Below are positions 33,249 through 50,747 of a stretch of DNA of 64,000 nt, piece by piece (positions within the stretch are counted from its first letter, which is position 1; each line of letters opens with the position of its first letter). Under the pieces are notes generated by a model, which saw only the letters and a program-made list of their open reading frames with translations, made no database searches and was not told where the DNA came from. Made by a program: the position numbers and the translations under genes. This stretch comes from Nitrospira sp. GTDB taxonomy: Bacteria > Nitrospirota > Nitrospiria > Nitrospirales > Nitrospiraceae. The DNA is taken from contig JABMDL010000015.1 in NCBI GenBank assembly GCA_015903945.1, positions 57,151 through 121,150 of the forward strand, given 5' to 3'.

Positions 33249-33613
33249 GTGCCTACCCTCCTCTTCGTGAATGGCTCTCGTGACTGTTTGTCGGTTGTAC
33301 GGTGACTGCTGTCGAACAAGACTGCATCGGCGGTGCCACGAAATAGTGATACGGAAAATGTGCGCCTGGTTGCGCAGATTCAAATGGTTGGAGACTAGCT
33401 CAGGAGTAAGTCCTGCCCGGACGGCCGGCACGCTGTCGCATTACTGGGCAGGACTGTTTCCTGCACTGTGGAATCTTTCACCATTCGATGGCTCTTGACT
33501 GGTGGGCACGCAGGGAGTCTCCAGCCTCGTCAATGGGATGGGGCGGCGATGAATCCTTTTCCGAGATTCCAACTCATAGATAGTACGCCATGCCATAAGA
33601 AGGAGGTGTGTAT

Positions 33614-33898
33614 ATGGTCAAGGTTGCAAGAACAGCCGCCGTTCGGCACGAGGCGTCTACCGATCGCTGCCATCGCTGCGGCGGGTTGATGGTGTCGGAA
33701 GAAGTGTTCGAGCTTGGTTCGTTTGATTGGCGCTGCGTGAGCTGCGGCCAACGGGTCGATCCGGTGATCCTCGCTCATCGCGAGGCCCATCGTCTTAAAG
33801 GGTTTGCCGGGGAAGAGGCCGAAAAGCACTTCGAGGATAAGGCCAGAGCGAAGGAGGGTCTTGAGAGCGATTCTTCCACGCGGAGATGTATATATTGA
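33614..33898 (+). CDS. Small zinc-ribbon protein
   Basis: CHRCGGLMVSEEVFELGSFDWRCVSCGQRVDPVI; upstream AAGGAGGTG. Confidence 0.6.
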   Translation: MVKVARTAAVRHEASTDRCHRCGGLMVSEEVFELGSFDWRCVSCGQRVDPVILAHREAHRLKGFAGEEAEKHFEDKARAKEGLESDSSTRRCIY

Positions 33899-34108
33899 CA
33901 AGAACGAAAAGAGGAACTACAATTAAGCTTGTAGTCAACCTCCGAGGGATGTGATCGGCCGAACTGTTCAACCCATCGCGTGACGCTGCTAGGGTTCGCG
34001 ATGGCCGCCGGTTGCGTTTTGAGAAAGGAAGGCATTGGCCCCTCAGGCTTGCGGGGGTTGCATGGTACATCACTTCGTTGCGTAACGGTTCGAACGAAAG
34101 GAGTAGCC

Positions 34109-34186
34109 ATGGATACATTGGCGATGTTCATCGGTGTAATGCTGGTGATCTTGATCGGCGGGATCCTAGTTTACAAGATGACCTAG
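34109..34186 (+). CDS. 25-aa single-TM microprotein
   Basis: RBS GAAAGGAGT then MDTLAMFIGVMLVILIGGILVYKMT*; paralogue at 36574..36654. Confidence 0.65.
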   Translation: MDTLAMFIGVMLVILIGGILVYKMT

Positions 34187-34505
34187 TAAGTACCGGCCCC
34201 ATTCAGCAACCGGTTGTTCGGCGCACTACCAGTTGGCGTAATTCGTGGTGGTGTGTGTGATGAGACCCTCATTCGCGATACGCGGCGAAGAACGTGTAAG
34301 TCTGTCTCCTGATTGCGCACTCATTCCTCTCCGAATCTTTCTTTAACTTTCAGGCAGTCCGAAAAATAAACCGATGTAGGCCTCTCTGCGACCGGTTTTG
34401 AGGTGCCGAATTCGTCTCGGAAATCACCAATGGTGCGAGGGGGTTGGGCGAGAAGGCTCAGGGTAATTTGTGGAGTGCCGAAAAAGATCGCGCGGGTCGC
34501 TTAAC

Positions 34506-35480
34506 TTATTCTTGAATGGCCTTCGCCCGCTTCTGCAGGTAGGCATTGCGGACGGCGCTGTAGAGATCGACGGTGGATTCTTCGACGCCCTGGTACTTTT
34601 CGAGGTTCAGGGAACGGTCATTGACGACTTCGGTCACTTTTGCCGTGAACAGGATAAGAGACGTCGTCGTTCGGTTGTAATGAGGAACGGCTGAAGGAAT
34701 CGCATCGATTTCGATCACGGGTAGAGCCAGCCAATAAATAGGATTTAGAAAAATATCTCCGACATATCCGGCTAAGTCCCGAAGCGTAAACGGCTGATAG
34801 AGGGGGACCACAATATACGGCCCCGGCTTGACGCCGTAGAATCCGAGCGTTTGTCCCAAGTCCTCCTCGGGCGTCTTGAGGCCCATGTCGCTTGCCCAAT
34901 CGATGAATCCCGCCACGCCGGCCGTGGTATTCACGAGGAAACGGCCAGCCTCAATGCCGGCTCCACGGATTTTCCCCTGCAATACGTTGTTGACGAACCG
35001 GGGGACGAATCGTGCGTTATAGAAAAAGTTGCTGACGCCGATTTGGACCTGATTCGGCATGACAAAGTCATAGCCCTTTGCCACCGGTTTCAGGATCCAG
35101 CGATCGAGCTGACGGTTGAATTCGAATACCCTCGTGTTGAGCGGTTCCCAGGGATCGTATTCCTCGAGTTGAAGCTCACCCGTCTTCGCGAAGGGGTCAA
35201 AGGGTTCTTCCGCGGAGCTGTCGCCAACCGCCGTTGAGGGTGGAGCCGGAGCAGAGACCGCAACAATTGGTACCGATGCATTGAAGTCGCCGACGGGAAG
35301 GCCTGCAAGATCCCCTGAGAGAGCATGAGTAGGATAACCGGAAAATGTCAGCAGCGCAACAGTAAGAGCCAGCCCTCCTACTCGTCGATTGAACTGGATT
35401 GCCACCTCGTCTATCCCGGCCATCATTCCCCTTCGCTGTGCCCCTGTCCGCTCAACTCGTGGCGTTGAGCGAGTGCGCAC
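34506..35480 (-). CDS. MlaA/VacJ family protein
   Basis: YDPWEPLNTRVFEFNRQLDRWILKPVAKGYDFVMP...FYGVKPGPYIVVPL; true start probably internal. Confidence 0.9.
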   Translation of the reverse strand: MRTRSTPRVERTGAQRRGMMAGIDEVAIQFNRRVGGLALTVALLTFSGYPTHALSGDLAGLPVGDFNASVPIVAVSAPAPPSTAVGDSSAEEPFDPFAKTGELQLEEYDPWEPLNTRVFEFNRQLDRWILKPVAKGYDFVMPNQVQIGVSNFFYNARFVPRFVNNVLQGKIRGAGIEAGRFLVNTTAGVAGFIDWASDMGLKTPEEDLGQTLGFYGVKPGPYIVVPLYQPFTLRDLAGYVGDIFLNPIYWLALPVIEIDAIPSAVPHYNRTTTSLILFTAKVTEVVNDRSLNLEKYQGVEESTVDLYSAVRNAYLQKRAKAIQE

Positions 35481-35633
35481 TTTACCAAAAGGCCGGTCCC
35501 GTCGCCAACCATTTATTTCTGCCGGCTCGCATTCGCGACCCTTATTCTAGGAAAGCGGTCGGGCTTTCCGTAGGGAATGAACATTGCAGTGTCCCAACGC
35601 TTGATGGTGAATCTCTAACAAGGAGATGAGGCG

Positions 35634-36479
35634 ATGAAAGCGGTTGTCGGTATAGATGGATCGAAGTATGGAGAGTGGGCGCTCGAATGGCTCGTGAAAC
35701 TTCCGTTCCGGACTGTGCCGAGCGTCGTCGGGGTGCACGGGCTCGATCTCCAGTCTGAGCCAGCTCCGTTTTTAACGCATCCATCCATCAGCGGATTAGA
35801 GCCGGATGCGGGAGAGGCGGCGCATTTTTTGGAGTCTCGAGCGAAGCGCGTAGTGGCGGAGACACAGCAACGCCTAAAGGGACTCGGGCTCAAGGGTACT
35901 GTTCGCGTGGAACATGAAGCCATTGCGAATGCGCTGCTCAAGTATGCGGGACGGAACGGCCTGGTGGTCGTGGGTAGCCGTGGGCTGGGGACGTTGGATC
36001 GCTTGATGATGGGCAGCGTCTCCACTGCTGTGACGCTCCATGCCTCCTGTCCCGTGTTGGTGGTGAAGGAGGCGGCGAAGCCGATCAGACGGATCTTATT
36101 CGCAACGGACGGCTCTCCCGCATCGGAGAAGGCGCGGCAGTTCCTCATCAAGCAATTCCGAATCCAGCAGGACACCGACCCGGTCGTCATCCTGCTGGTA
36201 CATGTGATGCCGTATCTCCGTTATCCGGTCGTGAAGGAAGCAGGAGAGAAATTACTCGCGCAAGAAACGGCCAAACTTGAAAAGGCAGGGTATCGGGTCA
36301 GGGAGTTTCCACGGGTAGGTCCCGCTGGGGATGAGATTATGAAAGTAGTGGGTTGGGAACAACCGGATTTGATCGTCACCGGAGCAAAGGGGCGTAGCGC
36401 GGTAACGCGGTTCCTCCAGGGCAGCGTATCCATTAAGATTGTGCAGCGGAGCGACTGTTCCGTCTTGGTTGTACGGTAA
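35634..36479 (+). CDS. Universal stress protein, tandem UspA domains
   Basis: VVGSRGLGTLDRLMMGSVSTAVTLHASCPVLVVKE and VTGAKGRSAVTRFLQGSVSIKIVQRSDCSVLVV. Confidence 0.93.
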   Translation: MKAVVGIDGSKYGEWALEWLVKLPFRTVPSVVGVHGLDLQSEPAPFLTHPSISGLEPDAGEAAHFLESRAKRVVAETQQRLKGLGLKGTVRVEHEAIANALLKYAGRNGLVVVGSRGLGTLDRLMMGSVSTAVTLHASCPVLVVKEAAKPIRRILFATDGSPASEKARQFLIKQFRIQQDTDPVVILLVHVMPYLRYPVVKEAGEKLLAQETAKLEKAGYRVREFPRVGPAGDEIMKVVGWEQPDLIVTGAKGRSAVTRFLQGSVSIKIVQRSDCSVLVVR

Positions 36480-36516
36480 GGAGGGCGTAACCCTTGAGAG
36501 GCATCACAAGAAAAGT

Positions 36517-36552
36517 GACGGCCACACCCCTTTATCCAGGGTTATGGCCGTC
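36517..36552. terminator. Hairpin terminator between convergent genes
   Basis: AAAAGTGACGGCCACACCC...GGGTTATGGCCGTCGTTCTTTCTTTC, between usp (+) and the microprotein (-). Confidence 0.65.
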
Positions 36553-36573
36553 GTTCTTTCTTTCGACCGCAGC

Positions 36574-36654
36574 CTAGGCGAATTTCTTATAGACGACCAG
36601 GCCACCGACCAGAAGTATAAGCATCACACCAATAAACGTCCCAAGCATATCCAT
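36574..36654 (-). CDS. 26-aa single-TM microprotein
   Basis: RBS AAAAGGAGT then MDMLGTFIGVMLILLVGGLVVYKKFA*; similar to the 34109..34186 product. Confidence 0.65.
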   Translation of the reverse strand: MDMLGTFIGVMLILLVGGLVVYKKFA

Positions 36655-36862
36655 AAGATAACTCCTTTTGTTTGATGATGGCCTTCCCTGTACTTGTGTA
36701 GTGTGAGCAACTCTCATGCGCGTTCGTCGCGCGCCGGCAGCTCTACAAATAGGTCAGAATGAAGGGGTTTTTCAGATTGCCCGTGGAGGCGAACTTGACG
36801 AATGGGGAGAAGAGCCCCAAGGCTGTCCAGTTCTCTTGACAGCTTGAGGAGATCGGGACTGA

Positions 36863-37785
36863 CTATCCCAACCCCTCACGCCCATGAGCCGCGGTCAGAT
36901 CCTGGACCGGGCCAAGGGGGACGATGCCGGTGGGATTGATCTCGTGATGGGTGAGGTAATAGTGCCGCTTGATGTGATCGAAGTTCACGGTAGCGGCGAT
37001 GCCGTCGGTCTGATACAGATCTCTCAGATAGCCGAAGAGGTGCGGATAATCGACAATACGCCGGAGGTTGCATTTGAAATGGCCATGATACACGGCATCG
37101 AACCGGAGTCGGTCTCGACGAAGTCCGCACCGAAAAGATATCGCCGGGTCGCAAGACGCGCGTCGAGCTGATCCAGCGCCTCAAACAGCCGTAGGACCGC
37201 CCGTTCATAGGCCCGTTGCGATGTGGCGAATCCCGCGCGGTAGACTCCATCGTTCACGTTGTCGTAGATGAAGGTGTTGAGTTCATTGATCTCCTTGCGC
37301 AGCTTGCTCGGGCAGAGATCGAGCGCACTCTCCGTGAATCGATTGAACTCGCTGTTGAAGATGCGCATGAGGTCGTCATCGGAATTGGTAACGATGCGTT
37401 TGGTGAGGGTATCCCAAAGTACCGGAACAGTCACGCGTCCTCGATAGTGCGGGTCGGTGGCTCTGTAGGCCTCACTGAGAAAATGAAACCCGTTGATGGG
37501 GTCGAGTGAATGCCCACGGCCGTTGCGAAATGCCCAACCCTGTTCGTCGCGAATCGGGTCCACGACGGTCATGCCGATGACGCCTTCGAGCTGCTTGAGC
37601 TTCCGTACGATTATCGTGCGATGCGCCCAGGGGCAGGCCCACGAGACATACAAGTGATAGCGCCCGGCTCCCGCCGGATAGCCTGAACTGCCGTCCGCGG
37701 TGACCCACCCTCGAAACGCATCCGCTTGACGTGTGAACTCACCGGCAAGTGATTGCTCGTTGGGGAACTGCGCCCGGATTTCCAT
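36863..37785 (-). pseudogene. Glutathionyl-hydroquinone reductase/GST (YqjG/ECM4-like), frameshifted
   Basis: GRYHLYVSWACPWAHRTIIVRKLKQLEG...; after FVETD the conserved C-terminus (YHGHFKCNLRRIVDYPHLFGYLRDLYQ...GIVPLGP) is in another frame. Confidence 0.85.
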
Positions 37786-37942
37786 AGCCAATCCCTCCTC
37801 CAGTGCGCCAGTATCGCATATCGGTGATCGGGTAATTAAGCGTGCCGGATTGGTCTGTCGCATTCCACCACAGACGAAATTCGATGCCGTGGCAAAAAGC
37901 TACGAAAGTCCCGATGCCCATCAGTAAAACCGCCGAAATAAT

Positions 37943-50465: not shown

Positions 50466-50747
50466 ATGCTGAACAAACCACGACGTCATGCGGATTTGCC
50501 CAAAGCGGCAATTGAGGCGCTGTGGCAAGGCAACCTGATCGGAGCCATCACGGTCGTTCGTCAGGAACGGAATCTCGGCCTGAAAGAGGCGAAGGGGCAG
50601 GTCGAAGTGTATATCGCCTCTCAGCCGGCCCTCAAGAAAAAGATGGACAAGGTGCTCGCCACGGTGCAACAACGATTCATCCGTTGGGTGATCGGATTGC
50701 TGATTCTGGCTGCCGGCATCACGCTCCTCGTACTGTACGTGTTGTGA
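50466..50747 (+). CDS. Membrane-anchored ribosomal L7/L12-CTD-like small protein
   Basis: MLNKPRRHADLPKAAIEALWQGNLIGAITVVRQERNLGLKEAKGQVEVYIASQP...WVIGLLILAAGITLLVLYVL. Confidence 0.7.
   Translation: MLNKPRRHADLPKAAIEALWQGNLIGAITVVRQERNLGLKEAKGQVEVYIASQPALKKKMDKVLATVQQRFIRWVIGLLILAAGITLLVLYVL

Follow-up and report, generated by a model that had tools for sequence, protein, structure and literature searches.

Two paralogous predicted membrane microproteins belong to a previously unnamed small-protein family of Nitrospira

Comammox Nitrospira are central to nitrification and hard to manipulate genetically. The window analyzed here, a stretch of 64,000 nucleotides, comes from a genome that probably belongs to this group, since it carries an AMO (PF02461) gene. 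Two very short, hydrophobic reading frames lie on opposite strands of the window, which raises the question of whether they are genes at all and, if so, what their products might do.

Coding evidence for microproteins A and B

The first-pass annotation had claimed two paralogous ORFs of about 25 aa, each with a ribosome binding site, on opposite strands. Both were recovered as microprotein A (34109..34186, + strand, 25 aa, ATG to TAG, MDTLAMFIGVMLVILIGGILVYKMT) and microprotein B (36574..36654, - strand, 26 aa, ATG to TAG, MDMLGTFIGVMLILLVGGLVVYKKFA), which are 60% identical. The Shine-Dalgarno site AAAGGAGT, read from the sequence, precedes each start codon at a normal spacing (34097..34104, + strand, for A; 36661..36668, - strand, for B). 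In an all-against-all comparison of the window's short ATG ORFs (65,775 pairs), A and B formed the top pair once nested starts of the same pair were set aside, and the next unrelated pair reached only 45% identity, so their likeness is not due to chance. Among the short ORFs of the window that have a Shine-Dalgarno site, they are the two with the highest hydrophobicity (maximum 19-residue hydropathy 2.75 and 2.58 for the 25-aa and 26-aa peptides, respectively), and a single transmembrane (TM) stretch of about 20 residues within a total of fewer than 30 aa places both in the YohP size class. Another very hydrophobic short ORF, MDKVLATVQQRFIRWVIGLLILAAGITLLVLYVL, is located around position 50643 (+ strand) of the window and is not preceded by a clear ribosome site.

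Selection on A and B is purifying. With 30 genes in each set, pooled dN/dS values (Nei-Gojobori) were about 0.26 (A) and 0.24 (B), computed over pairs that are not independent of each other, and synonymous change exceeded non-synonymous change four-fold. Third codon positions were the most variable in both sets, and length differences among homologues corresponded to whole codons. GGAG- or AAGG-type sites accompanied every family match in a search by score alone, in which no ribosome site was demanded, and AAGGAG-like sites were also present on divergent members in a profile search run without this requirement; our list of 109 loci was partly chosen for the ribosome site and cannot show that every locus has one. 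Among 28 aligned A orthologues the AAAGGAG of the ribosome site was invariant. The earlier proposal of real, conserved single-TM microproteins is thus borne out by the presence of homologues in 63 of the 79 genus genomes, in-frame indels and a dN/dS of about 0.25; neither a lack of homologues nor frame-breaking indels nor non-synonymous drift was found.

A conserved 5' leader of about 180 nt (33924..34108, + strand; mean column identity 70% over 28 orthologues) precedes A and is almost as conserved as the ORF itself, as would be expected if A and B were chance reading frames in a conserved non-coding RNA or in regulatory DNA. However, the four-fold excess of synonymous change, the indels that keep the frame and the retention of start codon and ribosome site all speak against such an origin, as does the protein sequence that A, B and a third paralogue, C (MDSTLLMFTLVMLSILVGGIVVYKKTQ; other contig of the same genome, G000:C23:3055-3138), share in spite of having no leader in common. 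We consider chance frames hardly credible and are highly confident that A, B and their relatives are real genes forming a real family.

Family distribution, gene neighborhoods and control regions

A search with a 25-row profile identified family members in the 63 genomes mentioned above, with one to nine copies per genome, the maximum of nine being reached with a second profile built from divergent members. Among 396 genomes drawn across the phylum, convincing matches were confined to this genus, and the four others were weak and located inside long reading frames. When 84,980 species were scanned for close relatives, every record recovered was titled Nitrospira, Nitrospirae or Nitrospiraceae, rapid-sand-filter MAGs among them, except for one labeled uncultured Nitrosospira; the scan used one short motif, which distant relatives elsewhere could escape. 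Pfam, NCBIfam and PDB contained no match to the family beyond weak compositional ones of the LPXTG type. Many members weakly matched the NCBIfam LPXTG anchor and DLW-39 profiles (best E 0.005 and 0.01), with which they share a hydrophobic stretch followed by lysines, but they have no LPXTG motif and are not part of a larger protein; we read these matches as compositional and rejected both identities. A phage origin was likewise rejected, with no viral homologue and no viral contig carrying a member. The family is new, previously unnamed, restricted to Nitrospira in these searches and of a known general kind. The searched profile libraries do not contain it, most genomes of the group have several copies, and purifying selection on it is clear.

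Several loci depart from the usual arrangement. Two genomes (G057 and G366) exhibit an apparent expansion to up to nine copies, some with an internal TGA, and these few copies may be decaying. In one genome (L132, 6397-7008) two B-type genes are arranged in tandem, 531 bases apart. A divergent subfamily with the consensus MDTNLLTFAGVILxLxIxAVxIYKKGQQP (L124, 4520-5258, and relatives) is encoded about 110 nt downstream of a BON-domain gene.

In the window, A is convergent with a gene for an MlaA lipoprotein (34506..35480, - strand; Pfam PF04333, E 6.6e-68), and B is convergent with a tandem universal stress protein (USP) gene (35634..36479, + strand; Pfam PF00582, E 2.2e-43). Upstream of B and on the same strand lies a GST-like gene (36863..37785, - strand; Pfam PF13409) that is split by a frameshift in the assembly into an ORF (37024-37863) and a C-terminal piece (36863-37093); its relatives are single ORFs of about 314 aa, and the split is a sequencing error or a recent frameshift. 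The sequence separating the convergent usp gene from B contains an inverted repeat with a T-rich flank (GACGGCCA...TGGCCGTC, 36517..36552), which is likely a terminator shared by the two. Terminator-like sites were detected downstream at only 19 of the 109 family loci and are therefore not a general feature of the family. A small Cys-rich, zinc-ribbon-like ORF (CxxC...CxxC; 33608-33898, + strand) is located between Hsp20 and A and gave only sub-threshold Pfam matches.

The typical gene order across genomes is HK - RR - small gene - A> <mlaA usp> <B <GST - CzcB - CzcA. Orthologue groups can be separated by their neighbors, with A convergent with mlaA, B convergent with usp and a few hundred bases downstream of the GST gene, and C near proA. 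A hand count of profile-search matches revealed A and B as a convergent pair, separated by 1.6-2.8 kb, in 32 genomes, and none of the pairs counted faced outward. In one subclade (L034, L036 and L044) mlaA is inverted, and the mlaA-A and GST-B neighborhoods are retained. Since this synteny has been kept, the duplication that gave rise to A and B is probably older than the sampled diversity. The link to USP genes suggested by the first-pass annotation is only partial: B lies between usp and the GST gene, A adjoins mlaA, and the neighbors of other copies are proA, a gene with a BON domain or regulators of the LuxR type. Taken over all copies, the neighbors include MlaA, USP, GST, BON-domain, MsrB, proA and HK/RR two-component genes, and the presence of MlaA, USP, GST, BON, MsrB and two-component genes is suggestive, if weakly so, of an envelope or stress setting.

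The control regions of A and B were distinct. A predicted sigma-70 promoter (TTGACA-17-TACAAT, 33895..33923, + strand) upstream of A matches the consensus at 11 of 12 positions, and TTGACA-17-TAAATT or a similar sequence was present 148-191 nt upstream of the start in most A orthologues; a promoter-like site in sense orientation occurred in 23 of 30, compared to about 7.6 expected. This near-consensus housekeeping promoter suggests steady rather than stress-only expression. Directly before the ribosome site of A, the leader contains a possible hairpin (UUCGU/ACGAA). An Rfam search of the A locus gave no match, RNAalifold found a single compensated pair in the leader, and a hand-drawn four-helix structure was 90.5% paired with covariation no better than in shuffles. 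A covariance model of the leader recovered further A leaders but neither those of the window's own lineage nor those of B or C, and a structured leader is therefore no more than a possibility.

No promoter of the A type was found upstream of B, which instead has the element GCATGAGAGTTGCTC (36705..36719, - strand; consensus AGCAC-AAGAG-TTGCTC), usually some 50 nt ahead of its start codon. Exact sites of the element numbered zero to two per genome in eight genomes. In the genome of the window, the second match (L152; G000:C24 near 27416) belongs to a partial duplicate comprising the 3' end of the GST gene and the upstream element of B, without a B ORF. The element resembles a -24/-12 promoter but has no -24 GG, and control of B by sigma-54 is not supported for that reason. 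Shared regulation of A and B was rejected. With a sigma-70 promoter for A and a distinct, near-unique element for B, the two genes seem to be controlled differently.

The long conserved leader of A, the size, hydrophobicity and copy number of the peptides and the tandem copies in one genome are also features of the hydrophobic toxins of type I toxin-antitoxin systems, such as TisB and DinQ, which are silenced by an antisense RNA and depolarize the membrane when released. On the other hand, an antisense promoter of the sigma-70 type is not conserved (5 of 30 A loci compared to 7.6 expected), B and C have no leader of the A type, and it would be unusual for such toxins to keep a stable synteny and to occur in most genomes of a genus; no viral contig carries a member, and purifying selection also makes a toxin less likely. 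A toxin role is distinctly unlikely.

Predicted topology and possible functions

Family members are 25-31 aa long and follow the consensus MDxxxLxxFxxVMLxLLIGGIxVYKKSx, in which a start of MD or ME is followed by about 20 hydrophobic residues, Y-K-K and usually two or three further residues. According to the positive-inside rule the positively charged end of a membrane helix is cytoplasmic, and the acidic N-terminus and YKK C-terminus thus predict a single helix in N-out/C-in orientation. When 87 distinct peptides were aligned on the tyrosine, the conserved positions were F-15, V-12, M-11, L/I-8, G-5, G-4, V-1 and Y0, with the glycines at -5 and -4 retained in 82% and 93% of peptides. Of the angles tried, 100 degrees gave the highest conservation moment (column-shuffle P 0.007, in which the columns are not independent evidence, the peptides being related). 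This pattern looks like that of a helix packing by one face against a partner, and the conserved face would suit a dimer and a hetero-partner equally well.

Our best reading, a tentative one drawn by analogy, is that of a small membrane protein resembling YohP of E. coli that dimerizes or binds a partner and tunes the membrane under stress. Each microprotein would be translated from its own strong Shine-Dalgarno site as an apparently separately regulated gene and would insert into the inner membrane as one TM helix, with the acidic N-terminus outside and YKK inside. The conserved face (F, V/M, L/I, GG, V/Y) may then pack on a partner, the simplest candidate being a second copy of the same peptide, and the microprotein might tune the state or energization of the membrane under stress in the manner of YohP.

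The single conserved face and the nearly invariant YKK end would also fit a small protein dedicated to a single inner-membrane complex as its subunit or regulator, with the paralogues serving alternative forms of that complex. The retention of several paralogues under purifying selection fits such a role, as does the restriction to one genus-level clade with enrichment in AMO-positive (comammox) genomes: 48 of 63 genomes with the family were AMO-positive compared to 1 of 16 without it (Fisher P 4e-7), a count that is drawn from related genomes, is no test of function and may reflect only phylogeny. However, with the exception of the CzcAB efflux genes beyond GST, no studied copy adjoins an operon for an oxidase, Kdp or another inner-membrane complex, and the contexts of the paralogues differ. 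Neither Pfam nor NCBIfam yielded a match to CydX, KdpF or FixQ at permissive thresholds, although HMMER filters weaken such profile negatives (CydX, KdpF, CcoQ/FixQ) for 25-aa queries, and PDB gave no match. A subunit role is a possibility nearly as likely as the YohP-like one, and the type I toxin is less likely than either. A further reading, in which the family has spread into up to nine separately regulated copies that help comammox Nitrospira and close relatives to manage their energized membranes, for example as exchangeable accessory subunits of an ammonia- or nitrite-oxidizing respiratory complex that was overlooked because its members are too short to annotate, is rather unlikely.

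Existing Nitrospira proteomes and RNA-seq data can be searched for the family immediately, and the predicted interaction face offers a concrete handle for finding the partner.

Comparison with known small membrane proteins

CydX of cytochrome bd, KdpF of Kdp and CcoQ of the cbb3 oxidase are single-TM small proteins of similar or somewhat larger size than A and B, and AcrZ is the corresponding partner of AcrB. Unlike CydX, KdpF and CcoQ, the family described here is encoded outside the operons of those enzymes and has no profile match to them. Toxic peptides of the DinQ/TisB type are tiny and contain a single TM (PMC3567139). A and B share these properties, and A has a long leader; they differ in that no antisense promoter (sigma-70 type, A loci) was found and in their stable syntenic retention across the genus.

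YohP of E. coli comprises 27 aa and is oriented mainly N-out/C-in (PMC7549839, PMC12719787). It dimerizes via a glycine motif, is induced by stress, lowers the membrane potential and aids survival (PMC12719787). A and B resemble YohP in length, in the single helix with short tails, in the predicted N-out/C-in orientation, in the glycine motif within the helix and in being encoded by genes of their own. In contrast to YohP, their family carries the pattern MD...F..VM...GG..VYKK, is multi-copy and was found only in Nitrospira. The resemblance is drawn from descriptions in the literature, and we do not claim membership of the YohP family; by analogy, YohP would represent the nearest described behavior.
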